Notes: generated by a model not told the origin, from the letters alone. A stretch of DNA of 35,810 nt from Myxococcaceae bacterium (GCA_019686135.1 JADGHL010000043.1:1-35810), one strand, 5' to 3'. Positions 5,528 to 34,438 are shown, counted from the stretch's first letter. Translations and numbers: made by a program.

Positions 5528-5681
5528 AGGAGCACATGCCCTCATCGGCGATGGTCGTCCAGCGTTTCCGCGGGGCCTCGGGTCGTCGCCCCCGCCGCCC
5601 CGGCCCGCTAGCATGGGTGGCTCGCCCGGCCCATCCGCCGACTGATCGTCGATTTCCCTTCCCGTCGCTGAGCCCCGCCCG

Positions 5682-6434
5682 GTGACCACTGCGTTTACGC
5701 TCCATCAGGTCAGCAAGCGCTACGGGGCGCACACCGCGCTGCACCCGTTGGACCTGACGGTGGAGGCCGGACAGCGGCTGGTGCTGATCGGCCCGAGCGG
5801 CTCGGGCAAATCCACCCTGCTGCGGCTGATGGTCGGGCTCGACGAGGCCTCTACCGGCGAGGTCCGCTTCGGACAGGAGCGGGTGACCGCGGACCGCTCG
5901 GCGGCGCTGCGGCGGAGGCTGGGCTACGTGGTCCAGGGCGGCGGGCTGTTCCCGCACCTCACCGCGCTGGAGAACGTGAGCCTGGTGGCGCGGCACCTCG
6001 GCTGGGATCGCGAAAGGCGCCTGGCGCGCGCGAGCGAGCTGGCCCAGCTGGTGCGGCTGCCCGACGACGTGCTCGAGCGCTATCCCATCCAGCTCTCCGG
6101 AGGCCAGGCGCAGCGGGTGAGCCTGATGCGCGCGTTGATGCTCGATCCGGAGGTGCTGCTGCTGGACGAGCCGCTCGGCGCGCTCGATCCGATCACCCGC
6201 CACGAGCTGCAGACGGACCTGCGGGAGATCTTCCAGAGGCTGCAGAAGACCGTGGTGATGGTGACGCACGATCTGGGCGAAGCGCTGTACTTCGCCGACC
6301 GGATCGTCCTCATGCGCGAGGGCCGGATCGTCCAGGACGGGCCGCCCGCCGACCTTCTCGAGAGGCCGGCGGATGCGTTCGTCACGCGCTTCGTCCGCGC
6401 CCAGCGCGCACCGCTCGCGGAGCCCGGGCCATGA
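5682..6434 (+). CDS. ABC transporter ATP-binding protein, compatible-solute (OpuCA/ProV-like) type
   Basis: This is the ATPase that powers import through the permease encoded next. Visible motifs are Walker A GPSGSGKS at residues 37-44, Q-loop Gln85, signature LSGGQ at 138-142, Walker B with Asp162/Glu163 and H-loop His196, so the ATP site looks complete. At 250 residues it lacks the C-terminal CBS domains of OpuA/ProV-type ATPases that sense ionic strength. Its stop overlaps the ATG of the receptor-permease by 4 nt, indicating translational coupling and a shared operon. The substrate class (glycine betaine, choline, carnitine or related) is inferred from the partner's receptor domain. The GTG at 5682 fits the usual N-terminus; no strong ribosome-binding site is seen. 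Confidence 0.9.
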   Translation: MTTAFTLHQVSKRYGAHTALHPLDLTVEAGQRLVLIGPSGSGKSTLLRLMVGLDEASTGEVRFGQERVTADRSAALRRRLGYVVQGGGLFPHLTALENVSLVARHLGWDRERRLARASELAQLVRLPDDVLERYPIQLSGGQAQRVSLMRALMLDPEVLLLDEPLGALDPITRHELQTDLREIFQRLQKTVVMVTHDLGEALYFADRIVLMREGRIVQDGPPADLLERPADAFVTRFVRAQRAPLAEPGP

Positions 6435-18601: not shown

Positions 18602-19945
18602 ATGGCGGAGAGGATCCAGACCACGGGACCGGCCGGGCCGCTCTTCCGGGCGGTGATCGCCCCGCTGCAGGCGTTCTTCCGGTTCGAGGCCGCCGGCGGC
18701 GTGCTGCTGTTGGTGACCACGCTGGTGGCGCTGGCGTGGGCGAACTCGCCGTGGAAGGACGCGTACCACCACCTGTTCTCCCTTCCGTTCGAGGTGACCG
18801 TCGGGGGCGTGGCGGTGCATTTCTCCTTCGAGGCGCTGATCAACGACGGCCTGATGACGATCTTCTTTTTCGTCGTCGGGATGGAGATCAAGCGCGAGCT
18901 TTTGATCGGCGAGCTGCGCTCGTACCAGCGCGCGCTGTTGCCGGCGGTGGCAGCGCTGGGCGGGATGATCGCGCCGGCGGTGATTTACGCGGCCATCAAC
19001 TGGGGCACACCCGAGCTGCGGGGCTGGGCGATCCCCATGGCCACGGACATTGCGTTCTCGCTGGGAGTGTTGACCGTCCTCAAGAAGCACGTGCCTTGGT
19101 CGCTGATCGTCTTTCTGACCGCGCTGGCGATCTTCGACGACATGGGCGGGATCGCGGTGATCGCCCTCTTCTATGGAACGGGGATCCACTGGCCGTGGCT
19201 GGCGGTGGCCGCGCTGTTCACCCTGACGGTGGCGGCGGTCGGCCGCGGCCTCATCGTGCGCAACGGTCTGGCATGGGGCGTGGTAGGGGTCGCGCTCTGG
19301 TACACGGTGCACCGGGCGGGGATCCACCCCACCATCGCGGGCGTGCTGCTCGGCCTGTTGATCCCCGCGCGCTCGGCGCCCTCCGGCCGGGAGATCCTCG
19401 CCAGCCTCTCCGACTACCTCCAGCAGCTTCTGGCGCGGCCCACCGAGGAGGAGATCAGCCAGGCCGAGGTGCTCGAGATCGAAGAACGGCTGGAGGACCT
19501 CGAGCCGCCGCTGAACCGGTTCGTCCACCTGCTCCACCCGTACGTCGCCTTCGGGATCGTCCCGCTGTTCGCGCTGACGAATGCCGGCGTCGATCTCTCC
19601 GGGGTGAGCCTCCACGCGCTGGCGCGGCCGGTCCCGCTGGGGATCGCGCTCGGGCTGTTCCTCGGCAAGCAGCTCGGGATCTTCGGCTTCACCGTGCTGG
19701 CGCTGCGCACGCGCCTGTCGCCGATGCCCACCGGCGGGCGCGCGTACGAGGTGTGGGGCGTGTCGGCGGTGGGAGGGATCGGCTTCACCGTCGCCCTGTT
19801 CGTCGCCACCCTCGCCTTCCGGGATGCGCCCCAGACACTCGCCGAGGCGAAGCTGGGGATCCTCGTCGGGTCCGCCGCGTCGGCGCTGTTCGGGTTCTTG
19901 TTGCTGTGGCGGGGCGGAAAGGCGCTCGCGACGGCCCGCAACTGA
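18602..19945 (+). CDS. nhaA: Na+/H+ antiporter NhaA
   Basis: NhaA expels Na+ (or Li+) in exchange for protons across the inner membrane and serves pH and salt homeostasis. The order of hydrophobic helices and signature blocks is typical: GMEIKRELLIGELRS, ATDIAFSLGVL with the helix IV Asp, FDDMGGI with the paired Asp residues that bind the ion, and ALTNAGV and GKQLGI later on. At 447 residues it is longer than the E. coli protein (388). The extra length is a charged cytoplasmic loop of about 45 residues (EEEISQAEVLEIEERLEDLE), seen in many longer NhaA proteins. The ATG at 18602 begins just before the conserved FRFEAAGGVLLL. It converges with the lipoprotein gene at 20253. Confidence 0.96.
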   Translation: MAERIQTTGPAGPLFRAVIAPLQAFFRFEAAGGVLLLVTTLVALAWANSPWKDAYHHLFSLPFEVTVGGVAVHFSFEALINDGLMTIFFFVVGMEIKRELLIGELRSYQRALLPAVAALGGMIAPAVIYAAINWGTPELRGWAIPMATDIAFSLGVLTVLKKHVPWSLIVFLTALAIFDDMGGIAVIALFYGTGIHWPWLAVAALFTLTVAAVGRGLIVRNGLAWGVVGVALWYTVHRAGIHPTIAGVLLGLLIPARSAPSGREILASLSDYLQQLLARPTEEEISQAEVLEIEERLEDLEPPLNRFVHLLHPYVAFGIVPLFALTNAGVDLSGVSLHALARPVPLGIALGLFLGKQLGIFGFTVLALRTRLSPMPTGGRAYEVWGVSAVGGIGFTVALFVATLAFRDAPQTLAEAKLGILVGSAASALFGFLLLWRGGKALATARN

Positions 19946-19985
19946 CCGCTGCCGCTTCGTCGTCGATCGAGCGCCCGTGTGCTCC

Positions 19986-20002
19986 GCGCCGCTGCACGGC
20001 GC
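19986..20002 (+). terminator. GC hairpin after nhaA, possible terminator
   Basis: A 6-bp perfect stem with loop CTGCA starts about 40 nt after the nhaA stop. It lacks a T-run, so Rho-independent action is uncertain. Confidence 0.3.
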
Positions 20003-20022
20003 ACGCACCGCCGCACGGCGCG

Positions 20023-20049
20023 CACCAGGCGCGCCAGGCGCGCCAGGCC
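20023..20049 (+). repeat. Three tandem copies of a 9-nt unit
   Basis: Units of the form CGCCAGGCG follow one another three times, with single changes in the first (A for G) and last (C for G) copies. Function is unknown; it may be simple slippage expansion. Confidence 0.7.
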
Positions 20050-20252
20050 GCGGCCTCCGGAGTCGGCGCCCCATCCCGCACTCAGCTCGCCGCCCTTACG
20101 CCACGCCGCACTCGCGCACCAGGCACGACACGGCGTGCAAGGACCGCATCCCGCACTCAACGCTGTATCCGGCCTCTTACACGCCGCCCGCATTCACCCC
20201 CGTGCTCCGCACGGACCCTGTGCCAGATTCCGCGCAGAACGCGCCGCTCGCC

Positions 20253-23219
20253 TCAGATGCAGCTCTTGCCCGCGATGCCGCCCTGGCAGATCAGCCCGGG
20301 GCTGCAGCCGTTCGGCGTGGCGCAGCTGCAGTTGGCGTCGCACGGCTGGCGCTGGGCGCACGCGTTGCTGGGGTTGCAGTACCAGTCGAGGGGACAATCC
20401 TGCACGTCCGTGCACGTGCAGACGTTCGGCGGCGTGCAGGCGGCGGGATCGACCTGGCACGAGCAGGGGCCGAACGTGCAGTCGCAGGTCAGCCCCGCTC
20501 CGCAGATCGGATCACCCGGCATCTGGCAGGCGCAGTCCTTTCCGCCGGGGTTCGCCACGCACGGGTCTTCAACGGCGCACGCGCACGTGCCGCCGGTGTC
20601 GCACGAGCAGATCAGCCCGCTGTCGCAGTCCGGATCGGCCTTGCACGTGCAGCCTTCGCCGGTGCACGGGGGCGGCAGCGGCCACAGCTCGCGGTCGGGG
20701 TAGGACGCCGGGCCGATCGCCTCGGGGAGCTTCGCGTCGTCCAGGGCCACCCGCACCAGGCCCTGGTCGGTGCCGGCGTAGATCACCCCGTCGTCGGCAA
20801 ACGTCACCCGCCACACGTAGCCGTAGAGCTGATCGCCGAAGGCCCGGGTCATACCGCCGTCGGCGCCGAAGACGTAGAGCCCATGCGTCGTGCCCACCGC
20901 GAGGTGTCCCACGGCGTCTTCGGCAAGAGAGAGCGGACGCTCGGGCGCGGTCCACGGCGCGTGAGCGAACACGCTCGTGGTCTTCCCGTCGAGGTCGAGG
21001 CGCAGAACACCCAGCCCGTCATCCACCGCGAACGCGCCGGCTTTGCCGACCGCGAGCCCCATCACATCCCCGAATGTCCCGCCCTCGGGCGGAGCGAACA
21101 CGCTCACCGTTTCGTCATCGACCAGGGCGATCCCACCGCGGGCGTTGCTGGGGGCGGGGTCTCCGAGCACGTGCTCGTAGGTGTACGAGAAGCGCTCCAC
21201 GCCGAGCGCTATCAGCGCCCGCCGGGAGGCCTCGTCTTCGCCGGGCAGCGGGACGACGTCCCACACCGCGTTGGACGGCAGGCCCTCGATCTCCGCGATC
21301 CCGAGGTCCGACTTCTCCCGCACGTACCTCCGGGAGAAGACGGGCGTGGCCGTCCCATCCAATTCCAACAGCCCGAGCCCATGCGGGCTGCGCCGGTTGA
21401 TCGCCACCTCGTCCATCATGGGGTACGACGACCACTCCGCCTTCGACCCCAGCCACAGCGTTTTCTTCACGCCGAACACCGCGCGCGTCATCCGAAGCGA
21501 CACCTTCGGGTCAATCTGGGTCATGATCTGCCGGGCGCTGTCGTTGGCGCGGGCGTACGTGGCGTCGCTCACCGTGGCCGCCGCCATCTGCTTCTGGGCC
21601 ACATCCCCGAAGGTCACGTCGACCGCGCTGGGCGAGGCGGCCAGCGTCCCGTCCCCGTCGTTCACGCTCAGCGGGACCACCTCGCACGCGCCGTCCGCGC
21701 GAAGCCGGCACACCGAGCTGCCCACGGGGATCCCATCGCACGCCATGCCGCCCTGGGCATCGTGCAGCGCCAGCCAGGTGTCGCCGTGGACGGGATCGAA
21801 CTCCACGTCGCGGACGCCGGAGATCCACGGGCGCACCAGCCGGGGCTCGTCCAGCGCGGTCCGCTCGACGCGGTAGACGGGCAGCTGCCGCATCTTTACC
21901 TCGCTGCACAGCTGGCGGCCGGCCACGTACAGGCGCCCCTCATCGTCGAAGGTGAGCACGTCGACGTTCCACGGCATCGCCCCCGCGTACGGATCCTTCG
22001 CGGAGATGAAGGGCTCGGCCGGCCCGAAGAACATGCCGTCGGGCGAACCCGCCAGCTCCACCATGCCGCCGCCCTCGAGGGTGTTGAGCAGCCGCCCGCC
22101 CACGACCAGCCGCTGGCGGTGGTCGTCCCAGGCCATCTTGCCGGGGACCACCGCGCCCACGCTGGAGGCGCTCAGCGTGTCGCTGTCCACCCGCACGTCC
22201 AGAAGAAGATTGCCCGGGTTCGAACCGTCTGGGGCGATGCCGTAGATGACGCCCCGCCCGTCGGACCCGAGCGCGCCCACCAGCATCACGCCCTGCATCC
22301 CGTAGACGGTGAGCGGGAACGACCCGTCGGTGAACGCCAGCGGCGTGGCGGCCGGCTCCCCGGCGAAAGCGACGGCGACGTGGGTCGCGGGCTGGCCGCT
22401 GGGGCCGAAGACGATCCCCACCGCCTCGCGTCCATCCACCACGCCCGAGCTCAGGTCCGACACCTCGGGGCCGGAGAGCGACACACCCAGATCCAGCCAG
22501 CGCTTCACCGCGAGATTCGTCGGATTGAGCACCGCCACGCCCTGGTTGGTGCCGACGAACAATTCGCCCCCGGCGACCGCCACGTGCTCGACGAGCGCCG
22601 GCGCGCTCTGGCCGGGCGCCTTCACCTTGACCGAGGAGAACGTCCACCCGCCGCTCTCGTTCTTCGCGCCGCGGACGACGAACTCGAAGCCCGCCGCGGC
22701 GAACGACGTGTCCTTTTCGATCCACGCGAGGTCAAACAACGAGACGGTGTTGAACCCGTAGTCCTCGAACTCGTTCTGGTAGCGCATCACCGGCAGCCCG
22801 TCGGAGGCGGTGTAGACGCGGACCTTGCCGGTCTTCGTGTCCAGAGCGATCAGCCCCGGGTGCAGCCAGTCGGCGGGCCCGGTGCTCTCCCGCCCGAAGT
22901 GGGCAGGGTCCTGCAGCATCGCGAGCGTGGCGAAGAAGGCGGTGTCGGTCCCGGCGATCACCGCGCGGGTGGGCGACGGCAGAAAGTTCCCGCGCGCGTC
23001 GGTGTCGGTGACCGTGGGGCCGGACGGATCCTCGCCGCCGTCCGGCAGGCCGCCATCCGGCAGCTCGCCCGCGTCGGTGTCCCCGCCCGCGTCCACGCCC
23101 GCGTCGCCGGGGGGATTCTCCTCCCCCGCGTCCGGTGTCCCGGTCGACGCTTTCCCACACCCGGCCGCCCACAAAGCACCCGCACAGATCACAACGGCCC
23201 AGCGCCAGCTCGTTCCCAC
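20253..23219 (-). CDS. Beta-propeller lipoprotein with cysteine-rich C-terminus
   Basis: The product (988 residues) is probably anchored in the outer or inner membrane. From the GTG at 23219 it has a short basic start, a hydrophobic stretch and the lipobox LWAAGC with Cys21. A 45-residue Asp/Gly/Pro linker (DAG, DGG repeats), common in myxobacterial lipoproteins, follows. The body (~100-850) has repeated blade-like segments of the ligand-binding sensor or propeller type (for example [20 protein letters not shown] and [17 protein letters not shown]). The last 137 residues contain 28 cysteines, many as CxC. The alternative ATG at 23258 adds 13 residues before the signal and has no ribosome-binding site. 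Function unknown; ligand binding or surface display is likely. No kinase domain follows the propeller. Confidence 0.8.
20256..20666 (-). other. Cysteine-rich C-terminal domain of the lipoprotein
   Basis: These 137 codons encode 28 Cys in an irregular repeat of the kind C-x-C-x(5-9)-C-x(5)-C-x-C, with Asp and Gly between. The pattern resembles disulfide-rich or EGF-like modules of secreted proteins. It may instead bind metal, which would fit the MopE-repeat lipoprotein encoded nearby. Confidence 0.7.
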
Positions 23220-23224
23220 GACTG

Positions 23225-23230
23225 CACCTC
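23225..23230 (-). promoter_or_regulatory. Ribosome-binding site deciding the lipoprotein start
   Basis: Minus-strand GAGGTG is followed by 5 nt and then the GTG at 23219. With this start the signal peptide has the usual length and charge, so I prefer it to the ATG at 23258. Confidence 0.65.
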
Positions 23231-23340
23231 GAAGCAAGAGGTCCGCTCCGGGATGCACCTGTCGGTGGCGCGGGAAAGCTTCAAAGTTTCGTCAGGCCGC
23301 ACCGGCCGGGCGCAGCCGAACTGGCGGCATGCCGGACCAC

Positions 23341-23357
23341 GTGCGACTGTTACGCAC
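23341..23357. repeat. Inverted repeat just before the ubiB-like start
   Basis: GTGCG and CGCAC flank 7 nt, ending 3 nt before the GTG at 23361. A perfect 10-bp palindrome (CGGCATGCCG, 23325-23334) lies close by. Both are in the 141-nt divergent gap between the lipoprotein and the UbiB-like gene, so they could be regulator sites, but short palindromes are frequent in GC-rich DNA. Confidence 0.3.
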
Positions 23358-23360
23358 AGC

Positions 23361-25052
23361 GTGCTGAAGGAAGCGTTCCAGGATCTCAACCGGGTGCGGC
23401 AGATCGCCGTCATCGCCGCCCGCCACGGGTTCGCCGACACGATCGAACGCTCGGGAGCCTGGCGGATCCTCGGCCGGAAGGAGAAGGTGGAGGTCACTCC
23501 CGAAGCGCAGCGCGCCTCCACCGCGCGGCGCTTCCGGATGTTCCTCAACGACCTGGGGCCGACTTTCATCAAGCTCGGCCAGATCCTCTCGACCCGGCAG
23601 GACCTCTTGCCGCGCGAGTACATCGACGAGCTCGCCCAGCTGCAGGACCACGTCCCGCCGATGTCCCACGAGGAGATGGAGCGGCAGCTGCGAACGGCGC
23701 TGGGGCGCGACCCGGCGGATCTGTTCCGCACCATCGACCCCGAGCCCCTGGCGGCCGCGTCGATCGCCCAGGTCCACCGCGCGGTGACGCTGGCCGGCGA
23801 CGAGGTCGTCATCAAGGTCCAGCGCTCGGGCATCACCGAACGGATCCGTTCGGACCTCTCCGTCCTCCACTACGTGGCGCGGCTTCTGGAGGCGGTGGTG
23901 GAGGAGACGGGCCTGTTGACGCCCACCGGGATCGTCGAGGAGTTCGACAAGGCCATCCACGAGGAGCTCGACTTCCTCCACGAGGCGCAGAACATCCGCG
24001 AGTTCTACGCCAACCACCTCGACCGGCCGTACCTCAAGGTCCCGCGCGTCTTCGACGAGCTGTGCACGCGCACGGTGCTGACCCTCGAGTTCATCCGCGG
24101 GACGAAGATCAGCCAGATCGACCTCCAGCACCGCGACCGCCACGCGATCGCCCGCCACCTGATCGAAGCGTCCTTCCGGCAGCTCTTCGAGGACGGGGTG
24201 TTCCACGGCGACCCGCACCCCGGGAACATCTTCGTCCTCGACGACGACACGGTGGCGCTGATCGACTACGGGATCGTCGGGCGGCTCACCCGCCCGATGC
24301 AGCAGACGCTGATCCAGCTCATCCTGGCGATCGCCCTCAAGGATCCGGACTCGGTGGCGCGGATCCTCTACCGGATCGGCACCCCGGACGCGCGGGCCAA
24401 CCTGATCGGCTTCCGCAACGACATCGACGCGATCCTCAACCAGTACCTGCCCTCCAGCATCGGGCAGATCAACGCCACGCGGCTGCTCAGCGAGCTGTTC
24501 GATCTCGCGGTGAAGTACCGCATCCGGATGCCGCGCGAGTACGCGCTGCTCTCCCGCGCGTCGATCAGCATGGAGGGGATCCTCCGCTGGCTGGCGCCCG
24601 ACCTGAAGATCAGCGAGGTCGCCCTCCCCTACGCGAAGCAGCTGTTCGCCGGGCAGTACGATCCCTCGAACCTGCAGGGCGGGCTGCTCCGGACGGTGAT
24701 GCGGCTGCAGTCGTTCGCCAACGACCTGCCGGTGCAGGTCTCGCAGATCCTCATGGATCTGGAGTCCGGCCGGTCCGTCGTGAACGTGCGCAGCGATCAG
24801 ATGGACCGCCTCAACGCCAACCTGCGCGCGTTCGCGGTGGTGGCCTTCATGGGGCTGGTGGCGTGCGGCCTCATCATCGGCGCGTTCATCTCCTTCGCGA
24901 GCCACCCCTGGGAGGTGAAGGGAGTTCCGGTGATGGGCGCGCTGGCGATCGCCCTCACCGGCGCACTCGTCGGCGCGGTCACCACCTGGATGCTGTTCGG
25001 CGGACGCCTCAGGAAAATTCGGCTCGCGCGGTTCCTCAACCGCAGCCGATGA
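23361..25052 (+). CDS. UbiB/AarF (ABC1/ADCK) family protein kinase-like ATPase
   Basis: UbiB-family proteins are atypical kinase-fold ATPases needed for ubiquinone synthesis in bacteria, and some members have other lipid-related roles. The family-specific KLGQ motif is at residues 71-74. The Ala-rich loop [11 protein letters not shown] is followed by VIKVQR with the ATP-site Lys, [11 protein letters not shown], the catalytic loop [10 protein letters not shown] and the metal-binding LIDYG, which has Tyr where Phe is usual. Two C-terminal transmembrane helices (about 485-510 and 520-545) anchor it in the membrane. I chose the GTG at 23361 since the product then starts as family members do ([17 protein letters not shown]). 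The ATG at 23253 would add 36 residues and overlap the promoter of the divergent gene. Length is 563 residues. Confidence 0.88.
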
Positions 25053-25098
25053 CGGCCCGGCTTTGGCCCGCGGCGAAGGCGTGGAAAACTCGCCCCCC

Positions 25099-27822
25099 AT
25101 GCCCCGTCGAATCCTCTGGATCCTCCCTGCGGCGACGCTGCTCGCCGCCGGCTGCGGCAAAGATGGCCCCGGTTCGGGCGCCGCGCGCGCGGTGATCGCC
25201 TGGCATGACGTCACGCCGCGCTGCCTGCGCCTCATCGCCACCCCACAGGACGGCGACCCGAAGGTGAGCGAGGTTCCGCTCGAGAATGCGTCCCCCAACG
25301 GCCAGAAGGTGATCGCCGTGTACCGCGCGGAGGGCTGGGGCCCGGACGTCACGCTCACCGCGCAGGCCTTCGAGGGCACCTGCGCCCAGGGGCAGGTCGT
25401 GGCCCAGAAAGAACAGTCCGCCCACATCACCACCGGCGTGGTGGAGGTCACCTTCGAATTAACCGCGAAGGACGCGGACAGGGACGGCTACGTCGACGCA
25501 AACGCCGAGCTCCCCGGGACCGACTGCGCGGACTCGGACCCGGCCATCCACCCGGGAGCGAACGAGGTCTGCAACATGAAGGACGACGACTGCGACGGGG
25601 CGGTCGACGAAGGCGTGAAGCTGCAATTGTACTGGGACGGCGACCACGACGGCTTCGGTGCGGGCCCCGTCTTCGAGGGCTGCAGCCCCACGCCGGACTG
25701 GGTGGCCGACAACACCGACTGCGACGACGAACGCGCCGATGTCCACCCCGGCCTGCCGGAGGTGTGCAACGGGATCGACGACAACTGTTCGGGAGAGCCG
25801 GACGAGGGGCTCGTCCTCGAGACCTTCTACGTCGACCAGGACGGGGACGGCTTCGGCGATCCGGCGCGCCCGGTGATGGCGTGCATGCAGGGGCCGGGGA
25901 TGGTCACCGACAACACCGACTGCGACGACGACCCGCAGGCGGGCGGCGCCTCCGCACACCCCGGCGGCACCGAGGTCTGTGACACCTTCGACAACGACTG
26001 CGACGGGATGGTCGACGACGGCGTGCGCCTCACCTTCTTCGTCGACGCGGACGGGGACGGCTTCGGCGACGAGACACAGCCCACGGTGATGGCGTGCAGC
26101 GCGCCCAAGGGCTACTCCGAAAAGGGCGGCGACTGCGATGACTCGCCCACCGTCGACGGGCCGTCGCGGCACCCCGGCGCCGCCGAAATCTGCAACGTGC
26201 TCGACGACGACTGCGACACGCAGGTCGACGAGGGCGTGAAGTCGACCTTCTACCGGGACCAGGACAACGACGGGTATGGCGACGCCCTCTCGAGCGTGGA
26301 CGCGTGCACGCCGCCGCCCGGGTACGTGGCCGACGCCACCGACTGCAACGACACCCCGGGCCCCGGCGCCGCCATCCACCCGGGCGCGGCCGAGGTCTGC
26401 AACGGCGTGGACGACAACTGCGCGGGCGGCATCGACGAGGGCGTCCTCATCACCTGGTACCGCGACCTGGACGGAGACACGTTCGGCGACCCGAACAACT
26501 CCACGACGGCCTGCACGCAGCCCGCCGGCTTCGTCCAGGACAACACCGACTGCGACGACACCAACCTGGCGATCCACCTCAACGCTCCCGAGACGTGCAA
26601 CTACGTGGACGACAACTGCAACGGCCAGGTCGACGAAGGCCAGAACGCCCCGGGGTACTTTGACCAGGACCACGATGGAGTCGGCGGCGCGGCCGGCCAG
26701 GGGTGCCTCAACCTGCCGGGGTTTTTGGCCGCCGGGGGCGACTGCGACGACGGCAACCCCTTCAACATGCCCGGTGGCACCGAGGTGTGCGACCAGATCG
26801 ACAACGACTGCGACGGGGTTGTGGACAATGGCGTGACCTGCACCGGATCGGACTGGGTGGAACCGGGGAATACCGGCGGAGGCGGTCACAACTACCACCG
26901 TCTGGCGATCGTCCAATCGGGCGCCTGGGCCGCAGGCGAAGGCGCGCTGCGCTATTTCCCAGGCAACAACGACGCCGCGAGCAACTACGACGGCGCTTGC
27001 GGCGGCACGAAGTGGCACTCGATCACGGCCGACTTTCTGGGAGGCACCGCCTACTTCGGAGACGACTCGAGCCGGCTCGGCTCGCAGACGCCCGGCGGGA
27101 GCTCTTGCTCCGGGCAGACGTCGTTCAAGGTGAACAACAACAATGTCGACCTGCGCGGGATGGCATTCGTTTACGACCTCACCTCCGGGTTGCCGTCGGT
27201 CTATGGCGTGAGCGACGGCGGGCACCTGTTCCGCTGGTCCTTCGCAGGCGGATCCACGGTGACCGAGGTGGGCTTCCAGGCGGGGTCGTTCTTCGACTTC
27301 GACGGGCTGTGGAACGGCTGGATGTTCGCCGTGGGCGCGGGCCCGGTCAGCACGGTCGAGCCGTACATCGTCCTGGGTCGCTCACCCACCGACTGGGTCG
27401 CGGATCCCATCGATCCAACGCTCACCTTCACGCCCGGTCAGACGCTGCGCGCCGTCTCGGTGGCTCTGTACGGGTACGCAGCCGCAGTGGGAGACGGGGC
27501 GCTGGTGCTCGTGCGCGATCCGTCGCCCACGAGCGGACCGAACCAGTGGACGAAGCTCCCGGACCCGCCGGGGGCGAACGACCTCATGGGCGTCAAATGC
27601 TTCGGCAAGAACCTGATCTACGTGGTGGGCACCGGGACCGGCACGGGCACCGTCAATGGCTACGGGCTGTGGCGCTGGAGCGGCAACCCGGCCTCGTGGA
27701 CGCTGGACAGCACCGTGGACTTCCAGGCCAGCAAGACGCCCCGGGACATCGATGGGGCGTCCCCGGACAACCTCTGGATCGTCGGGCTCAAGGGCTTCGT
27801 GCGGCACTGGACCCACCCCTGA
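25099..27822 (+). CDS. Lipoprotein with seven MopE-type metal-binding repeats
   Basis: The 907-residue protein begins with a signal peptide ending in the lipobox LLAAGC. Residues ~30-135 form a small beta domain. Residues ~139-580 hold seven copies of a ~65-residue repeat: DCDD, then HPGAxEVCN, then DDNCDGxVDEG, with aromatic/Asp-rich spacers (DxDxDGFGDP). This is the putative metal-binding motif named after the copper-binding protein MopE and abundant in myxobacterial secreted proteins. The Asp-rich loops look like calcium sites. The last ~325 residues are Gly/Ser/Asn-rich beta segments that may form a propeller. The ATG at 25099 gives a normal signal peptide; the frame opens earlier at 25063 without support. 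Role unknown; adhesion or metal binding is plausible. Confidence 0.85.
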   Translation: MPRRILWILPAATLLAAGCGKDGPGSGAARAVIAWHDVTPRCLRLIATPQDGDPKVSEVPLENASPNGQKVIAVYRAEGWGPDVTLTAQAFEGTCAQGQVVAQKEQSAHITTGVVEVTFELTAKDADRDGYVDANAELPGTDCADSDPAIHPGANEVCNMKDDDCDGAVDEGVKLQLYWDGDHDGFGAGPVFEGCSPTPDWVADNTDCDDERADVHPGLPEVCNGIDDNCSGEPDEGLVLETFYVDQDGDGFGDPARPVMACMQGPGMVTDNTDCDDDPQAGGASAHPGGTEVCDTFDNDCDGMVDDGVRLTFFVDADGDGFGDETQPTVMACSAPKGYSEKGGDCDDSPTVDGPSRHPGAAEICNVLDDDCDTQVDEGVKSTFYRDQDNDGYGDALSSVDACTPPPGYVADATDCNDTPGPGAAIHPGAAEVCNGVDDNCAGGIDEGVLITWYRDLDGDTFGDPNNSTTACTQPAGFVQDNTDCDDTNLAIHLNAPETCNYVDDNCNGQVDEGQNAPGYFDQDHDGVGGAAGQGCLNLPGFLAAGGDCDDGNPFNMPGGTEVCDQIDNDCDGVVDNGVTCTGSDWVEPGNTGGGGHNYHRLAIVQSGAWAAGEGALRYFPGNNDAASNYDGACGGTKWHSITADFLGGTAYFGDDSSRLGSQTPGGSSCSGQTSFKVNNNNVDLRGMAFVYDLTSGLPSVYGVSDGGHLFRWSFAGGSTVTEVGFQAGSFFDFDGLWNGWMFAVGAGPVSTVEPYIVLGRSPTDWVADPIDPTLTFTPGQTLRAVSVALYGYAAAVGDGALVLVRDPSPTSGPNQWTKLPDPPGANDLMGVKCFGKNLIYVVGTGTGTGTVNGYGLWRWSGNPASWTLDSTVDFQASKTPRDIDGASPDNLWIVGLKGFVRHWTHP
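25516..26838 (+). repeat. Seven coding repeats (MopE-type)
   Basis: Repeat units begin at roughly 25517, 25715, 25913, 26129, 26339, 26543 and 26738, each about 200 nt. They are clearly diverged at both DNA and protein level, so the expansion is not recent. Confidence 0.85.
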
Positions 27823-27837
27823 CGCCTGAACCGGACC

Positions 27838-28521
27838 GTGGAGCTTCGCCTGGAGGGGATCGCGGTGCGCTTCGACGGCGCGCCGGCGCTGAGCGACGTC
27901 TCGGTGGCCTTCCCCTTCGGCGCGCACGTGGGGATCTGCGGCGGCCCAGGCAGCGGGAAGACCACCCTGCTCAAGGTGCTGGCGGGCCTTCGCCGGCCGG
28001 ATGAAGGCCGGGTGCTCTGGGACGGCGAGGACGTGTGGGCGCTCTCCCCCGCCACGCGAAGAGACCGTCAGGCCGCGTTCGGGATGGTGTTCCAGTCCGA
28101 CGCGCTCTTCGACTCGGAGACGATCCTCATGAACGTGGAGGTGCCGCTCTTGCGCCGCGGCGTCCCGGCCCCCGAGGCGCGGGCGCGTGCGCTCGAGGCG
28201 CTCGGGGACGTGGGCATCACCGAAGCGGCGGACCTTCTTCCGGACCAGCTCTCCGGAGGGATGCGCAAGCGCGCCGGCATCGCCCGCGCCATCGCCGCGC
28301 GCCCGAAGGTCCTGCTCGCGGACGATCCACTGGCCGGGCTCGATCCCTCCACCGCCGCGCAGATCGCCCGGGTGTTGCGGCGGGTGGCGCAGGACCGCAC
28401 GCTCGTCCTGGCCGTGCCGGATCCCCTGGCGCAGCTGAGACTGCCGCGGTGGATCCGCCTCGAAGCGGGGCGGATCGTCGAGGACGGTCCGGCGAACGGG
28501 GTAACCCCGGACACGGTATAG
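27838..28521 (+). CDS. MlaF-like ABC ATPase with a degenerate catalytic site
   Basis: This is the first ATPase of a five-gene MCE lipid transporter. It resembles MlaF, including LSGGMRKRAGIARAIA after the short helical region. Walker A GGPGSGKT (residues 35-42), Q-loop Gln86 and signature LSGGM (138-142) are intact. Two catalytic residues are not: the Walker B reads LLADDPLAG, with Asp163 in place of the catalytic Glu, and the H-loop His is Pro194 (LAVPDP). Its own Walker site is therefore probably poor at hydrolysis, while it can supply a good signature to a partner. The GTG at 27838 lies 15 nt after the MopE-repeat gene. The matching partner is encoded at 30074. It has 227 residues, slightly shorter than MlaF (~269). 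Confidence 0.88.
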   Translation: MELRLEGIAVRFDGAPALSDVSVAFPFGAHVGICGGPGSGKTTLLKVLAGLRRPDEGRVLWDGEDVWALSPATRRDRQAAFGMVFQSDALFDSETILMNVEVPLLRRGVPAPEARARALEALGDVGITEAADLLPDQLSGGMRKRAGIARAIAARPKVLLADDPLAGLDPSTAAQIARVLRRVAQDRTLVLAVPDPLAQLRLPRWIRLEAGRIVEDGPANGVTPDTV

Positions 28522-28533
28522 GCTCACGCCGCC

Positions 28534-29331
28534 GTGAACCTCCTTCTGCGCATCCCGGCGTCCGCCGGCCACTGGGTGGTGGCGTGGGTCCGGGCCATCG
28601 GAGCGCTGACGCTGATGCTGGTGAGGGTGTGCCGGCTTCTGCCATCGATGGACCGGCGGGAGCTGCTCCGTTCCATCGCCCACTTCGGCTTCGGCAGCCT
28701 CCCGCTCACCATCGTCGTGGCCACCGTCACCGGCGCCACCGTGGTGCTGCAGACGTCGCTGTACGTGGAGCGCTTCGGCGCGCGGCAGATGCTCGGGTGG
28801 GCGGCCGGGTACGCGGTGCTGTGGGAGTTCGGGCCGCTCCTTCTGGGCCTGATGCTCGTGGCCCGGGTGGGCGCGCGCAACGCGGCGGAGCTGGCGCAGC
28901 TGTCGGTGGGCGGGCAGCTCGAGGGCCTGGCCGGGATCTCGCTCGATCCGTTGGCGCTGCTCGTCGCGCCGCGCGTGTGGGGCGTGCTGATGTCGGTGGT
29001 GTTCCTCGCCCTGCCCGCCTTCGTCATCGCCACCCTCTGGGAGATCGCGGCCGCGTTCTTCACGCTGCAGATCCCCGTGCGCGTGTTCCTCGGCACCTTC
29101 CAGGAGATGCTCGGGACCGGCGAGCTGTTGGGCGGGCTGGTGAAGTCGGTCGCCTTCGCCGGGGCCATTGCCCTGGTCTCCACCCTTGCGGGGATCCGCG
29201 CCCGCGGCGGTGCCCGCGCCGTGGGCCGGGCGGCGGCGTCGGCCGTGGTCTATGGCGCCGCGGCGATCTTCGCGCTCGATTTTTCGCTCTCCTCCCTCCT
29301 CTCGCGCCTGGCGCACGCGGCCGCCGGATGA
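28534..29331 (+). CDS. MlaE-like permease, first copy
   Basis: MlaE proteins form the inner-membrane channel of MCE phospholipid transporters. This 265-residue copy has an N-terminal amphipathic helix region, then five to six hydrophobic helices. The family core is recognisable as WEFGPLLLGLMLVARVGARNAAELAQL followed by DPLALLVAPRV. The usual EQIDAL-type coupling motif is changed to GGQLEGLAG, so this copy diverges more than the second at the place where MlaE touches its ATPase. The GTG at 28534 is 12 nt after the ATPase stop. Its own stop overlaps the second permease by 4 nt. Two permeases side by side suggest a heterodimer instead of the usual homodimer. Confidence 0.88.
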   Translation: MNLLLRIPASAGHWVVAWVRAIGALTLMLVRVCRLLPSMDRRELLRSIAHFGFGSLPLTIVVATVTGATVVLQTSLYVERFGARQMLGWAAGYAVLWEFGPLLLGLMLVARVGARNAAELAQLSVGGQLEGLAGISLDPLALLVAPRVWGVLMSVVFLALPAFVIATLWEIAAAFFTLQIPVRVFLGTFQEMLGTGELLGGLVKSVAFAGAIALVSTLAGIRARGGARAVGRAAASAVVYGAAAIFALDFSLSSLLSRLAHAAAG

Positions 29332-30077
29332 TCGCCCCGTTCCTTCGCGCCGTCGGCGGCCCCTTCTGGATGCTGACCCGCACCGTCGGCGCCACGGCGC
29401 GACGAGGCCTCTCCTTCGCCGAGCTCGTCCGCAGCCTGCACCGGATCGCCAACCGCTCGGCGGCGCTCGTCTTGTCCGGAATGACGTTCTTCGGCGTGGT
29501 GATGGTGGTGATCGCCCACGCGCAGGCGCGGCGCTTCACCGGGAACCTGTCGGTCGTGGGGCCCGCCTACTTCGAGCTGCTGGTCCGCGAGTTCGGGCCG
29601 CTGGTGTCCGCGCTGCTGGCCGCCTCCCGGGCCGGCGCGCACGACGCGTCCGAGCTGGCGTCGATGACGGTGAACGAGCAGGTCGAGGCGCTGGAGATGT
29701 CCGCCGGGGATCCGCTCGCGGATCTGGTGGCGCCACGGGTCGCCGCGGGGCTGATCGGCGTGCCGCTGCTGTGCATCATCGGCACCGGGGCGGCGCTCGC
29801 CTCCGCCGCGTTCACCGCCCAGTTCGTCTTCGGCGCGGACGGCGCCGCCTTCCTCGACGCGCGCTTCCTCACCGCAGGCGATCTCGCCTCCGCCACCGCC
29901 AAGGCGTTTCTGTGCGGCTTGTACATCCCGCTCGCCGCCAGCTGGCGCGGGCTGTCCACCCGCGGCGGAGCGTCCCACGTGGGCAGGGCCACCACCGAGG
30001 GCGTCGTGGCGAGCGTCCTCGGGTGCCTGGTGATCGATCTGCTGATGGCAATCGCCTTCCGGCTCGTGCACGCATGA
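29328..30077 (+). CDS. MlaE-like permease, second copy
   Basis: This 249-residue permease keeps the family core more closely than its neighbour: REFGPLVSALLAASRAGAHDASELASM followed by NEQVEALEM and DPLADLVAPRV. The N-terminal amphipathic helix (FLRAVGGPFWMLTRTVG) and five to six membrane helices match MlaE. It overlaps the first permease (ATGA at 29328-29331) and the second ATPase (ATGA at 30074-30077), so all are translated together. It probably pairs with the first copy in one transporter. The two are clearly related but only distantly similar, so the duplication is old. Confidence 0.9.
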   Translation: MIAPFLRAVGGPFWMLTRTVGATARRGLSFAELVRSLHRIANRSAALVLSGMTFFGVVMVVIAHAQARRFTGNLSVVGPAYFELLVREFGPLVSALLAASRAGAHDASELASMTVNEQVEALEMSAGDPLADLVAPRVAAGLIGVPLLCIIGTGAALASAAFTAQFVFGADGAAFLDARFLTAGDLASATAKAFLCGLYIPLAASWRGLSTRGGASHVGRATTEGVVASVLGCLVIDLLMAIAFRLVHA

Positions 30078-30808
30078 GCGCACCGGCGATCCGCTTTTCG
30101 GGTGTGAGCAAGGCCTATGGCGGCGCGCCGCCGGTGTTGCGGCGCGTGGACGTGGAGGTCCCCGACTCCGGAGTCACCTTCGTGGTGGGCCGCAGCGGCG
30201 CGGGCAAGAGCGTGTTCTGCAGGCTGGCGGTGGGGCTGGAGCGCCCGGACGAAGGCGAAGTGCTGCTCATGGGGACGCCGCTGTCCGGCCTGAGCGAACG
30301 CCGGCTCCTCGAGCTCCGGCGCGACGCGCCCTATCTCGTCCAGGGCCCGGCGCTTTTGGACTGGCTCACCCTGTCGGAGAACGTGGCGCTCGCCGACCCA
30401 CAGCGCGACCGCGCGCGCGCCTTGTCGGCACTGGAGCGCGTCGGGCTGACGAATGAAGCGGACCGGCTGCCCACCGAGGTCGGCCCGGGGGTGCGTAAGC
30501 GCGCGGCGATCGCCCGCGCGCTGGTGCTTGGGCCCCGCTACCTCCTCTTCGACGAGCCCACGACCGGCTTGGACCACAAGAGCGCGCGCCAGGTCTCGGA
30601 GGTGCTCGAGCGGCTGCGCGCGGAAGGACTTGGAGCGCTGGTGGTCTCGCACGATTATCCGCTGCTGGAGCGGATCGCCGACCGCGTGATCCTGGTGGAG
30701 GGCGGCCAGGCGCGCGTGTTCCCGTCGAAGGACGCCTTCTGGACCTCCGACGATCCGGCGGTGCGCGAGCTGTTGGCGCCAGTGCGCGCGGAGAGCTTCG
30801 ATGGATGA
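30074..30808 (+). CDS. MlaF-like ABC ATPase with intact catalytic site but degenerate signature
   Basis: This is the second ATPase of the MCE cluster (244 residues). Walker A GRSGAGKS (residues 39-46), Q-loop Gln90, Walker B FDEP with Asp160/Glu161 and H-loop His193 (VVSHDY) are all present, so its Walker site can hydrolyse ATP. The signature that should read LSGGM is VGPGV (136-140), although the following RKRAAIARAL is normal for MlaF. Defects here and in the ATPase at 27838 complement each other. A heterodimer would have one complete site (this Walker plus the other's LSGGM) and one dead site. The stop overlaps the MCE gene by 8 nt. Confidence 0.88.
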   Translation: MSAPAIRFSGVSKAYGGAPPVLRRVDVEVPDSGVTFVVGRSGAGKSVFCRLAVGLERPDEGEVLLMGTPLSGLSERRLLELRRDAPYLVQGPALLDWLTLSENVALADPQRDRARALSALERVGLTNEADRLPTEVGPGVRKRAAIARALVLGPRYLLFDEPTTGLDHKSARQVSEVLERLRAEGLGALVVSHDYPLLERIADRVILVEGGQARVFPSKDAFWTSDDPAVRELLAPVRAESFDG

Positions 30809-31814
30809 GCGGCGGTTGGAGATCCGCGTCGGCCTTTTGATGCTGCTGGGGATCGCCGGCGTGCTCGGGTTGCTGTGGCTTATGGGCGAGCTGACGCTCT
30901 CCCGCGCGCCCTCGCTCAAAGTGTTGTTCGCGCACACGGGCAACGTGGTGAAGGGCGCGCCGGTGAAGCTGGGCGGCGTCACCGTGGGGCGTGTGGACGC
31001 CATCACGCTGGATCCGACGCGCCGCGACGAACGGGGCGAACCGCTCCCGGTGCTGATGTCGCTCTCGGTGGATGAAGCGACGCTCGCCGCGCTGCACTCG
31101 GACGCGGCGGTGACCATCGCCACCGTGGGCCCATTGGGCGAGCCCTACCTCGAGCTGTGGGTCGGTTCGGCCGACGCGCCGCCGCTGCCCAGGGACGCGA
31201 CATTGCGTGGCACCGACTTCCCCCGCCTGGACGTGGTGGCGCTGCGGTTGTCCCGCTTCCTCGAGAGCGCCAGCCGGATCCTCGACGAGAACCCGAAGGC
31301 GATGAGCACGCTCGTCAGCGGCGTCTCCCGCCTCACCACCAACGTCGACGCGGTGCTGACCGAGAACAGGGACGACCTTCGCACCCTCACCGCCGAGCTC
31401 ACCGCGGCAGCGAAGGATCTCCGGCAGCTGGCGCAGGTGGCGCGGCGGAGCTTCGAGCCCGGCGGCAAGGGCGACCGGCTGCTCGACGACGCGGCGGTGG
31501 GCGCCCGCGCGCTGCGCACCGACGTCCCCGAGCTCTCCGAGAACGCAAAGCGCGTGCTCGCGCACCTCAACGCGCTGTCGGATCAGTTCAGCGAAGAGGA
31601 CATGCGCAAGCTGAGGCGGGCGATCGACCGCTACACCGCCGCGGCGGAGAAGCTGGACTCGCTGGCCGCGCGCGGCGACCGGCTGCTCGGGCAGATCGAA
31701 CGCGGCGAAGGGACGCTGGGGAAGATCCAGCAGGACCCCGCGCTGTACGGCGAGGTGAAGGCGCTGGTGGAGGACCTGCGCAAGCACCCGTGGAAGATCC
31801 TCTGGAAGGACTGA
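30801..31814 (+). CDS. MCE-domain protein (MlaD-like substrate-binding subunit)
   Basis: MCE proteins form periplasmic hexameric rings that carry phospholipids or other lipids between the membranes. One N-terminal transmembrane helix (residues ~10-30) is followed by an MCE domain (~37-120), clear from GNVVKGAPVKLGGVTVGRVDAI and the VGPLGEPYLEL block. A long helical region follows (~140-310), which could build a tube. The end (GTLGKIQQDPALYGEV, then a short KxPWKILW-type tail) is common in longer MCE proteins. At 337 residues it is longer than MlaD of E. coli (183) and nearer to the YrbD/Ttg2C-like long forms. It is the last gene of the cluster, starting 8 nt inside the second ATPase. No MlaB or MlaC gene is found beside it. 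Confidence 0.92.
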   Translation: MDERRLEIRVGLLMLLGIAGVLGLLWLMGELTLSRAPSLKVLFAHTGNVVKGAPVKLGGVTVGRVDAITLDPTRRDERGEPLPVLMSLSVDEATLAALHSDAAVTIATVGPLGEPYLELWVGSADAPPLPRDATLRGTDFPRLDVVALRLSRFLESASRILDENPKAMSTLVSGVSRLTTNVDAVLTENRDDLRTLTAELTAAAKDLRQLAQVARRSFEPGGKGDRLLDDAAVGARALRTDVPELSENAKRVLAHLNALSDQFSEEDMRKLRRAIDRYTAAAEKLDSLAARGDRLLGQIERGEGTLGKIQQDPALYGEVKALVEDLRKHPWKILWKD

Positions 31815-31863: not shown

Positions 31864-31913
31864 GCGATCCGCGCCGAATGGTCCGGGCGCGAAGGTTTCC
31901 GCGACGTTGCAGC

Positions 31914-31929
31914 TGGCACACGCGCTGCT
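31914..31929 (+). promoter_or_regulatory. Candidate sigma-54 (-24/-12) promoter of the MBL hydrolase gene
   Basis: TGGCAC, 5 nt, then CTGCT matches the RpoN consensus TGGCAC-N5-TTGCA except for two positions of the -12 element. The GG/GC spacing is exact. Transcription would start near 31940, leaving a ~50-nt leader before the ATG at 31989. A sigma-54 activator is encoded two genes on, which supports but does not prove the call. Confidence 0.4.
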
Positions 31930-31975
31930 CTGCCTCCGGTTCGACCAGGGCGCGCCGATTCACGGCGGCCCAACC

Positions 31976-31982
31976 GAGGAGG
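31976..31982 (+). promoter_or_regulatory. Strong ribosome-binding site of the MBL hydrolase gene
   Basis: GAGGAGG is followed by 6 nt and the ATG at 31989. This fixes the start and rules out the in-frame ATG at 31878, which would add 37 Arg-rich residues. Confidence 0.8.
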
Positions 31983-31988
31983 CTGGCA

Positions 31989-32822
31989 ATGGAAGTGCGG
32001 TTCTGGGGAGTGCGCGGCAGCGTGGCGGTGTCGGGAGCGCACTCGGCGCGGATCGGTGGGAACACCTCGTGCCTGGAGGTGACCAGCCAGGGGAAGCGGC
32101 TCATCCTCGACGCCGGGACGGGGCTGCGCGCGCTGGGCGATCAGATGCTGCGCGAACAGAACCTCGAGGCGGCGCTGCTCTGGTCGCACCTGCACTGGGA
32201 TCACGTGCAGGGCTTCCCGTTCTTCGCGCCCGCGTACGTCCCCGGCGCGCGACTGACGCTGTACGGCCCCGGCCCCGACGGTGCCACGGCGCTCCGGGAC
32301 GTGCTCGACCGGCAGATGCAGCCGCCCAGCTTCCCGGTGCCGCTTGGCGCGATGCGGTCGCAGATGACGTTTGCCACCGCGCGGGACGGTGAGCCCTTCG
32401 AGTGGGGGCCGTTCCGGATCACCCCGGTCGATCTCCCGCACCCGCAGGGCTGTCTGGGCTACCGGATCGAAGCGGACGGGCGGAGCTTCTTCTACGCCAC
32501 CGACGTGGAGATGAGCTTGGACGAGCTGAGCCCGAGGATCGCCCGCGCGATGGAAGGCGTGGATGCGTTGTGCCTGGACGCGCAGTACACACCCGACGAG
32601 TACGCCGGCAAGGTCGGCCCCTCCCGGCGGGGCTGGGGTCACTCCACGGCGATCGAGGCGGCGAAGATCGGCGCAGCGGTCAACGCGCGGCGGCTGTTCC
32701 TCTTCCACCACGATCCCGCGCACAACGACGAGACGGTGGAGCGGATGGCGGAGGAGGCCCGCGCCTATTGCGAAGTCGCGGAGCCCGCGCGCGAGGGCAA
32801 GCAGATCCTCGTGACCGCCTGA
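31989..32822 (+). CDS. Metallo-beta-lactamase-fold hydrolase
   Basis: The 277-residue cytoplasmic protein starts with WGVRGS and GGNTSCLEV, a hallmark of the MBL subgroup that includes PhnP-like and cyclic-nucleotide phosphodiesterase-like enzymes. The zinc motif HLHWDH spans residues 67-72. A later LPHPQGCLGYRIE, then ATDVEM with the bridging Asp, then HSTAIEAAKIG and FHHDPAHND provide the other ligands, so a two-metal active site looks complete. The substrate cannot be told; a phosphodiester is most likely for this subgroup. It stands alone between the MCE cluster and the sigma-54 activator, with its own likely promoter and strong ribosome-binding site. Confidence 0.9.
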   Translation: MEVRFWGVRGSVAVSGAHSARIGGNTSCLEVTSQGKRLILDAGTGLRALGDQMLREQNLEAALLWSHLHWDHVQGFPFFAPAYVPGARLTLYGPGPDGATALRDVLDRQMQPPSFPVPLGAMRSQMTFATARDGEPFEWGPFRITPVDLPHPQGCLGYRIEADGRSFFYATDVEMSLDELSPRIARAMEGVDALCLDAQYTPDEYAGKVGPSRRGWGHSTAIEAAKIGAAVNARRLFLFHHDPAHNDETVERMAEEARAYCEVAEPAREGKQILVTA

Positions 32823-32899
32823 GCCCGCATCACGGAGGCGCTCCCTTGCCCGAACCCTGCACGATCCGGACTCTGCTCTGCGCAAGCACCGGGCGAGGC

Positions 32900-32905
32900 T
32901 ATAGT
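32900..32905 (+). promoter_or_regulatory. Possible -10 element of the GAF/sigma-54 activator gene
   Basis: TATAGT lies 27 nt before the ATG at 32933. No good -35 box is present at the right spacing, so this is a weak call. Confidence 0.25.
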
Positions 32906-32932
32906 CCGTTCGAGCTCCCGCCGCTGCCCCGC

Positions 32933-34438
32933 ATGTCCACCCCCCGATCCGACGACGTCTCCCCGGTGTTGCTGTCGGTGGGGAACCTCGTCGGGCAGGA
33001 GGTCAACCTCGACGAGTTCCTGCAGACGCTGATGGATCGCGTCGCGGTGGCGATGCAGGCCGATCGCGGGACCCTGTATCTGCTCGATCCCGGGCGCGGC
33101 GAGCTCTTCTCCCGCGCCGCCCACCTGCCCGAGCTCGCGCAGATCCGCTTGAAGATCGGCCAGGGCGTGGCCGGGTACGTGGCCGAGACCGGCGCCACCG
33201 TGAACGTGCCGGATCCGTCCGGCGAGAAGCGCTTCTTCGCGGACATCGACCGGATGACCGGGTACCGGACCACGTCGATTCTCGCGGTGCCGCTGCGCGA
33301 TCGCGACGGGCAGCTGTTCGGCGTGCTGCAGGTGCTCAACAAGCGCGGCGGATCGACGTTCAGCGACGAGGACGCGGCGATGCTCGGGAGGATCGCCGCG
33401 CAGATCGCCACCGCGCTGGAGAGCACCAGCCTGTTGCAGGAGATCCGCCGCGCGCGCGAACAGCCGGAGGCGCCGGTCGGCTACTTCTTCAACCGGATCA
33501 TCGGCGAATCGCCGGCGATGCGGTCGGTGTACCGGCTGGTGCAGAAGGCGGCTGCCACCGATGCCACCGTGCTCATCCGCGGAGAGTCCGGGTCCGGCAA
33601 GGAGCTGTTCGCCCGCGCCGTGCACGTCAACAGCAGCCGCCGGCACAAGCCCTTCGTGAAGGTGGACTGCGCCGCCCTGCCCGCCTCGCTGATCGAAAAC
33701 GAGCTGTTCGGCCACGAGAAGGGCGCGTTCACCGGCGCGGATCACCGCGTCGAAGGCAAGTTCGAGGCGGCGGATGGCGGCACGGTGTTCATCGACGAGC
33801 TCGGGGAGCTTCCGCTCACCGTGCAGGGCAAGCTGTTGCGCGTGCTGCAGGACCGCGAGTTCGAGCGCGTGGGCGGCACGCAGACGGTGAAGGTGGACGT
33901 GCGGATCGTCGCGGCCACCAACCGGGACCTGCAGCGGATGGTCGCGGAGGGCCGCTTCCGCGAGGACCTCTACTACCGGATCAAGGTGGTGGAGCTGGTC
34001 CTGCCGCCGTTGCGCGAACGCGGCGCCGAGGACCTCGAGCGGCTGGCCCGCCACTTCGTGGCCGCCGCAGCGAAGAAGCACCGGCTGCCGCAGGTCCCGC
34101 GCCTGACCGCCTCCGCGCTCGCCTCGCTGCGCGCGTGGTCCTGGCCGGGAAACGTCCGCGAGCTGGAGAACTGCATCGAGAGCGCGGTCGTGCTGAGTGA
34201 CGGGGAGATCACCGCCGATGATCTCCCCCTCCCCTCGCGGGCGCGCCCGAGCGGAACGCCTCCGCCCGGCGGCACCGTTGAACCGCCGTCGATTGAGCCA
34301 TTGGCCGAAATCGAGCGCCGCCACATCCTCCGCGCGCTGGAGCTGTTCAACGGGAACCGGACCGCCGCTGCGAAGGCGCTGGGCATCGGCCGGAACACTT
34401 TGGGCCGCAAGCTCAAGGAGTACGGCCTCGAGGAATGA
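32933..34438 (+). CDS. Sigma-54-dependent transcriptional activator with GAF sensor domain
   Basis: The 501-residue regulator has three parts. Residues ~20-170 form a GAF domain ([40 protein letters not shown]), which usually binds a small ligand. Residues ~190-415 are the AAA+ core: Walker A GESGSGKE near 217-224, the sigma-54-contacting GAFTGA loop at 264-269, Walker [13 protein letters not shown] and the arginine-finger region FREDLYYR. The last ~45 residues ([36 protein letters not shown]) are a Fis-type helix-turn-helix. There is no receiver domain, so no partner kinase is required. Myxobacteria have many such proteins. The ATG at 32933 is preceded by no strong ribosome-binding site; the frame stays open far upstream inside the MBL gene, which is spurious. 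Confidence 0.93.

Follow-up and report, generated by a model that had tools for sequence, protein, structure and literature searches.

Background

MlaFEDB, the phospholipid transporter of Escherichia coli, is a type VIII ABC transporter of the MCE family, in which a permease/ATPase module of twofold symmetry is joined to an MCE ring of sixfold symmetry. It has one permease gene and one ATPase gene, whose products act as homodimers, together with MlaB, MlaC and MlaA. In mycobacterial Mce1 (YrbE1A/YrbE1B, MceG and Mce1A-F), the permease is a heterodimer, the ATPase MceG is a homodimer, and there are six different MCE proteins and a helical MCE needle (PMC9882608).

Some heterodimeric exporters of drugs and peptides, among them TAP1/TAP2, TM287/288 and BmrCD, combine a canonical with a degenerate ATP site: in one nucleotide-binding domain (NBD) Asp replaces the catalytic Glu and the H-loop is changed, and in the other the signature is changed. 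Exporters are the best-known case of degenerate ATP sites; the reason for the persistence of such sites is an open question. In TAP, the sites are formed in trans: the Walker motifs come from one subunit, the C-loop and D-loop from its partner (PMC4242082; PMC7756269). The peptide importers DppBCDF and OppBCDF have two permease genes and two ATPase genes, and E. coli DppD and DppF were both reported to have functional motifs (PMC12136057). In the open-access literature (bioRxiv was not covered), we found no description of an MCE transporter with a heterodimeric, degenerate or asymmetric ATPase pair.

In the present study, we analyzed a five-gene locus of a Myxococcaceae bacterium. It shares with MlaFEDB the MlaE-family permeases, the MlaF-family ATPases and an MlaD-type MCE domain; however, the permease and the ATPase are both doubled and diverged, the helical region of the MCE protein is longer, and the four genomes checked gave no match to MlaA. 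With two diverged permeases and two diverged ATPases, the locus is not a case of the Mla pathway proper, in which there is one MlaF plus one MlaE. It shares with Mce1, by inference, a heterodimeric MlaE-family permease and a helical needle, but it has only one MCE gene, and the ATPase is also split and asymmetric. The pattern of its ATP sites is that of TAP1/TAP2, TM287/288 and BmrCD, although these are type I exporters with the transmembrane domain and NBD in one chain, another membrane fold and no MCE protein. The likeness to the peptide importers is limited to the gene number, since these also have another membrane fold. We conclude that the locus very probably encodes a heterodimeric ABC transporter of the MCE type, in which one ATP site is hydrolytic and the other degenerate; the assembly is inferred, and complex formation and ATPase activity have not been tested.

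Results and discussion

Organization of the locus

The window, i.e., the whole stretch of 35,810 nucleotides analyzed, contains at 27838-31814 five co-directional genes that overlap or nearly touch, in the order F1-E1-E2-F2-MCE (Table 1). The gene coordinates bear out the order ATPase, permease, permease, ATPase, MCE given in a preliminary description of this DNA. F1 and E1 are separated by 12 bases, and the overlaps are 4 bases (E1/E2), 4 bases (E2/F2) and 8 bases (F2/MCE). Both F1 and F2 are of the MlaF kind: they were found by the same searches, and fall in the same tree, as the MlaF-like ATPases of other MlaE loci, and the PDB matches of these ATPases include MlaF chains.

Table 1. Genes and ATPase motifs of the locus (positions counted from the first letter of the window)
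Feature	Coordinates	Strand	Remarks
F1, MlaF-like ATPase, 227 aa	27838..28521	+	GTG start; degenerate catalytic half, intact LSGGM and D-loop LDP
F1 codons 138-142, LSGGM	28249..28263	+	intact signature; would complete the active site on F2 in the proposed model
F1 codon 163	28324..28326	+	Asp replaces catalytic Glu
F1 codon 194	28417..28419	+	Pro replaces H-loop His
E1, MlaE-family permease (PF02405)	28534..29331	+	coupling loop GGQLEGL, without the usual Glu
E2, MlaE-family permease (PF02405)	29328..30077	+	coupling loop NEQVEAL, MlaE-like
F2, MlaF-like ATPase, 244 aa	30074..30808	+	Glu161 and His193 intact; signature VGPGV degenerate; D-loop altered to LDH
F2 codons 136-140, VGPGV	30479..30493	+	degenerate signature
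MCE protein, 337 aa	30801..31814	+	TM helix 3-27; one MCE (MlaD) barrel ~38-140; helical region ~143-328

The genome from which the window comes (5.5 Mb, 97% complete) has two more MlaE loci, both ordinary and each with an ATPase gene and an MCE gene of its own. In one of them (L002, on contig C156 of genome G000), the ATPase signature is LSIGM, with Glu and His intact. Another ABC ATPase gene in the window (5646-6431) lies outside this operon and has a canonical LSGGQ, Glu and His.

Conservation of the ATPase motifs

F1 has the Walker A motif GGPGSGKT, the signature LSGGM (138-142), D163 and P194, and F2 has GRSGAGKS, VGPGV (136-140), E161 and H193; the motif states on which the preliminary description was based are thus all present. 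It had proposed to check whether these changes are conserved in homologues of both ATPases and co-occur with two mlaE genes, and had held that clusters with canonical motifs in both ATPases, or sequencing errors at the motifs, would refute its reading. Clusters were read from relatives, a named genome collection, the class and the phylum, and 227 distinct ATPase sequences were compared (81 F1, 77 F2 and 69 ordinary MlaF-like). The changes are conserved in the F1 and F2 sequences, which come from independent assemblies, and are accompanied by two mlaE-type permeases. Among the clusters read, none had canonical motifs in both ATPases, the F2 signature being degenerate in 77/77, and the recurrence of the same states in independent assemblies excludes sequencing errors.

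The SGG of the signature is retained in 81/81 F1, 0/77 F2 and 68/69 MlaF-like sequences. The catalytic Glu is retained in 10/81 F1, 77/77 F2 and 67/69 MlaF-like sequences, and the H-loop His in 3/81, 76/76 and 68/69, respectively. Loss of the D-loop Pro is confined to F2 (retained in 81/81 F1, 19/77 F2 and 67/69 MlaF-like), and the aromatic residue (F/Y/W) of the A-loop is relaxed in F1 alone (43/80 F1, 74/77 F2 and 67/68 MlaF-like). The Walker A Lys was found in 81/81 F1, 77/77 F2 and 68/69 MlaF-like ATPases, and the Q-loop Gln in 79/81 F1 and 77/77 F2. Altogether, 66 of the 69 ordinary MlaF-like ATPases are fully canonical.

Only one F1 of 81 (L189) keeps both Glu and His, and it is paired with a degenerate F2; nine further F1 keep Glu. 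Thus, the fully asymmetric state is not universal. Asp in place of Glu and a changed signature lower hydrolysis but need not abolish it. The second site in the Glu-keeping lineages may retain some activity.

Pairwise dN/dS is about 0.01-0.35 for all five genes. Some of the F1 values exceed those of E1 and E2, as would fit a weaker constraint on part of this gene.

Two further variants were observed. In genome G027 (L010 and L039), the F1 H-loop has His while the sister genome G007 has Pro, so that this is a lone reversion or a variant. Genome G098 (L218, positions 1453-2256 on contig C322) encodes an ATPase in which Glu is replaced by Asp and the H-loop His by Pro (DDPTAGLDP, TPD), with the signature LSGGM; in the tree it groups with the ordinary MlaF-like ATPases and not with the F1 clade, and is possibly a second, independent degenerate MCE ATPase.

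Model of the transporter

Every element of one composite site (site 1) is conserved and every lost or relaxed element belongs to the other (site 2), while Walker A is kept in both. The conserved elements assemble as F2 Walker with F1 signature and the losses as F1 Walker with F2 signature, which leads to the heterodimer reading, as does the lack of a complete site in either homodimer: both signatures would be broken in F2:F2, and F1:F1 would lack the catalytic Glu and His. The preliminary description had proposed that pairing F1 with F2 gives one canonical and one degenerate site, and the complementary losses agree with this. The asymmetries of the D-loop and A-loop, of which it made no mention, are placed where the heterodimer model requires them.

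We propose one transporter, in which two different permeases (E1 and E2) and two different ATPases (F1 and F2) would be capped by the MCE protein. Site 1 would consist of the Walker A/B, Q-loop and H-loop of F2 with the signature and D-loop of F1; it is predicted to be fully canonical and is inferred to hydrolyze ATP. Site 2 would consist of the F1 Walker A/B with the F2 signature and D-loop. As its Walker A lysine is kept, site 2 probably binds ATP, by inference without useful hydrolysis, and it would hold the subunits together or serve as a regulatory site. In each cycle, a single ATP would power a conformational change of E1:E2 and, through it, the passage of lipid between inner membrane and MCE tunnel, where a lipid substrate is inferred from family membership only.

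Permeases and MCE protein

Both permeases match Pfam MlaE (PF02405; E1, E 5e-46; E2, E 3e-44), and their only PDB matches are MlaE and YrbE1A/B. In MlaE, the coupling helix is located between TM2 and TM3 (PMC7790496). The difference between the permeases pointed out in the preliminary description lies in the coupling loop (SVGGQLEGLAG in E1, TVNEQVEALE in E2). The Glu of the EQ motif in this loop is present in 59/59 ordinary MlaE and 74/78 E2, and in 13/83 E1, where Gly is usual. We infer that this change in E1 alters coupling to one ATPase.

The MCE protein matches Pfam MlaD (PF02470) above the cut-off. AlphaFold prediction was poor from the single sequence (mean pLDDT 50.6) and reached 69.2 with 22 sequences; in the latter model, the TM helix and the barrel are good and the helical region has low confidence. 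In a Foldseek search with the MCE model, Mce1 needle subunits and MlaD took the top ranks, Mce1 chains being the best. From its family, and not from the model, which is of a single chain, we expect the protein to form a hexamer whose helical needle extends into the periplasm. A recent PDB entry with an Mce/MlaD domain (13hr chain I, 312 aa) matches residues 7-286 of the MCE profile, including the helical region.

The designation "MCE (Mla-type)" in the preliminary description therefore stands as to MCE, but "Mla-type" is too narrow, because the protein, with its long helical region, matches both MlaD and mycobacterial Mce1 and because MlaA (PF04333) was not found in any of the four genomes checked (G000, G023, G007 and G044). 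MlaC-like genes occur, unlinked, in these four genomes; without MlaA, MlaC would need another outer-membrane partner.

Phylogeny of the ATPases and order of degeneration

In the tree of the 227 ATPases, F1 and F2 form clades with support of 0.978 and 0.997, respectively; the own support of the ordinary MlaF-like group is low (0.427). Parsimony gave no change at the first Gly of the signature within the F2 clade, and the degeneracy of the F2 signature is inferred to be ancestral to this clade. For Glu and His, there are five and three changes, respectively, in F1, against none in F2. Besides L189, which keeps both residues, L208 has Gly for Glu with His kept, Glu is kept with Asn for His in L199, L212, L214 and L228 and with Ala for His in L035-L037 and L069, and most Myxococcales have Asp with Pro, Ala, Thr or Ser. 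Such lineage-wise variation of F1 would be expected if constraint on one composite site were relaxed.

Distribution and linkage

Orthologues of E1 were found in 84 of the 147 genomes of the class, mostly adjoining E2, and are separated by a clear score gap (E < 1e-85, with the next MlaE at 1e-56). The hosts include Myxococcus xanthus, with an orthologous cluster in strain AM003 (L099), Corallococcus, Pyxidicoccus, Archangium and many Myxococcales MAGs; some Myxococcaceae genera are without the system. Weaker E1 homologues occur with E2 and F2 in other classes of the phylum. Only one phylum was searched systematically; genomes outside it were reached by a single pattern-based scan.

The permease pair, F1, F2 and MCE are found on different contigs or far apart in three small genomes (G044, G049 and G053); all five genes persist and the scattered genes keep the same motif states. 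The system is thus kept in genomes of 2.9 Mb with its genes on separate contigs. In the other classes, F1 is unlinked from E1-E2-F2-MCE and was located elsewhere in six genomes (G194, G187, G190, G189, G193 and G156). This spread through the phylum, with its unlinked copies, goes beyond what the preliminary description had noticed. F1 was not identified in G191 or G098, neither search being exhaustive; in G098, a contig end cuts the system, and F2, MCE and part of E2 are seen (L240). In the E1-less genomes checked (G028, G015, G017, G014, G006 and G021), orthologues of the F1, F2 and MCE classes were not found, and there are only ordinary MlaF and MCE proteins. Several genomes have the operon interrupted at E1/E2, E2/F2 or F2/MCE by insertions of about 1-4 kb (L039, L040, L105, L052, L044 and L051).

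Alternative explanations

Since Walker A and the Q-loop are kept in both ATPases and each is of the MlaF kind, one could imagine two transporters at one locus, with an F1 homodimer on one permease pair and an F2 homodimer on the other. However, each homodimer would then have two defective sites, the losses are complementary rather than shared, the locus has a single MCE gene, and the genes are co-retained in a genome even when unlinked; we regard this arrangement as very improbable. A less distant alternative, although still unlikely, is that F1 is a pseudo-ATPase that donates its signature and D-loop to the F2 site, nucleotide at site 2 having no function. The loss of Glu and His in most F1 copies, and an A-loop aromatic in only about half, would fit this, but the Walker A Lys (81/81) and Q-loop Gln (79/81) suggest that nucleotide binding is under selection. 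This possibility departs from our model only on whether site 2 needs ATP.

The absence of the system from some Myxococcaceae genera might suggest random decay of a dispensable operon, and an assembly error at the motifs could also mimic the observed states. Against both, the same states occur in independent assemblies and genera, dN/dS is far below 1, and the genes survive unlinked in the small genomes. The recurrence in 81 F1 and 77 F2 leaves room for neither chance nor sequencing error, so that, given the motif conservation and dN/dS, we reject random decay and sequencing error as having next to no likelihood. The argument of the preliminary description that complementary loss is hard to explain as random decay is upheld by the same data. 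The heterodimer with one hydrolytic and one degenerate site remains the preferred reading.

Neighbouring genes

Upstream of the operon, an open frame at 19608-25052 of the window holds a UbiB/ABC1 atypical kinase gene; about 17 related loci also have one upstream. Myxococcus and Corallococcus instead have an RND pump, an HlyD-type adaptor and a TolC-type protein on this side. The gene at 25063-27822 ends 15 bases before F1, with which it may share a transcript; its 919-aa product carries seven putative metal-binding motifs of the MopE type (PF11617). Frames next to about 20 related loci match this stretch. Downstream, at 31878-34438, are a metallo-beta-lactamase-fold protein and a GAF/sigma-54 activator regulator, common to only a few related loci. 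The neighbours (UbiB kinase, RND pump) vary by lineage and give no firm clue to the substrate.

Conclusions

We consider it likely that the locus represents a class of MCE transporters found throughout the phylum Myxococcota, in which a motor that is an obligate heterodimer, with one site hydrolytic and the other degenerate, evolved independently of the exporters and is matched to a heterodimeric permease with differing coupling loops, and in which the path of degeneration (the signature first, then the H-loop and Glu by lineage) can be read from living sequences. This would be a new MCE architecture: in Mce1 the permease is split and the ATPase is homodimeric, whereas here the ATPase is split too. 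A degenerate ATP site seems to have arisen independently here, in an ABC fold other than that of the exporters, and intermediates are preserved. Myxococcus xanthus is a genetically tractable host of an orthologous cluster, and an inherently asymmetric motor would make symmetry breaking and the coupling of one ATP per cycle directly testable.
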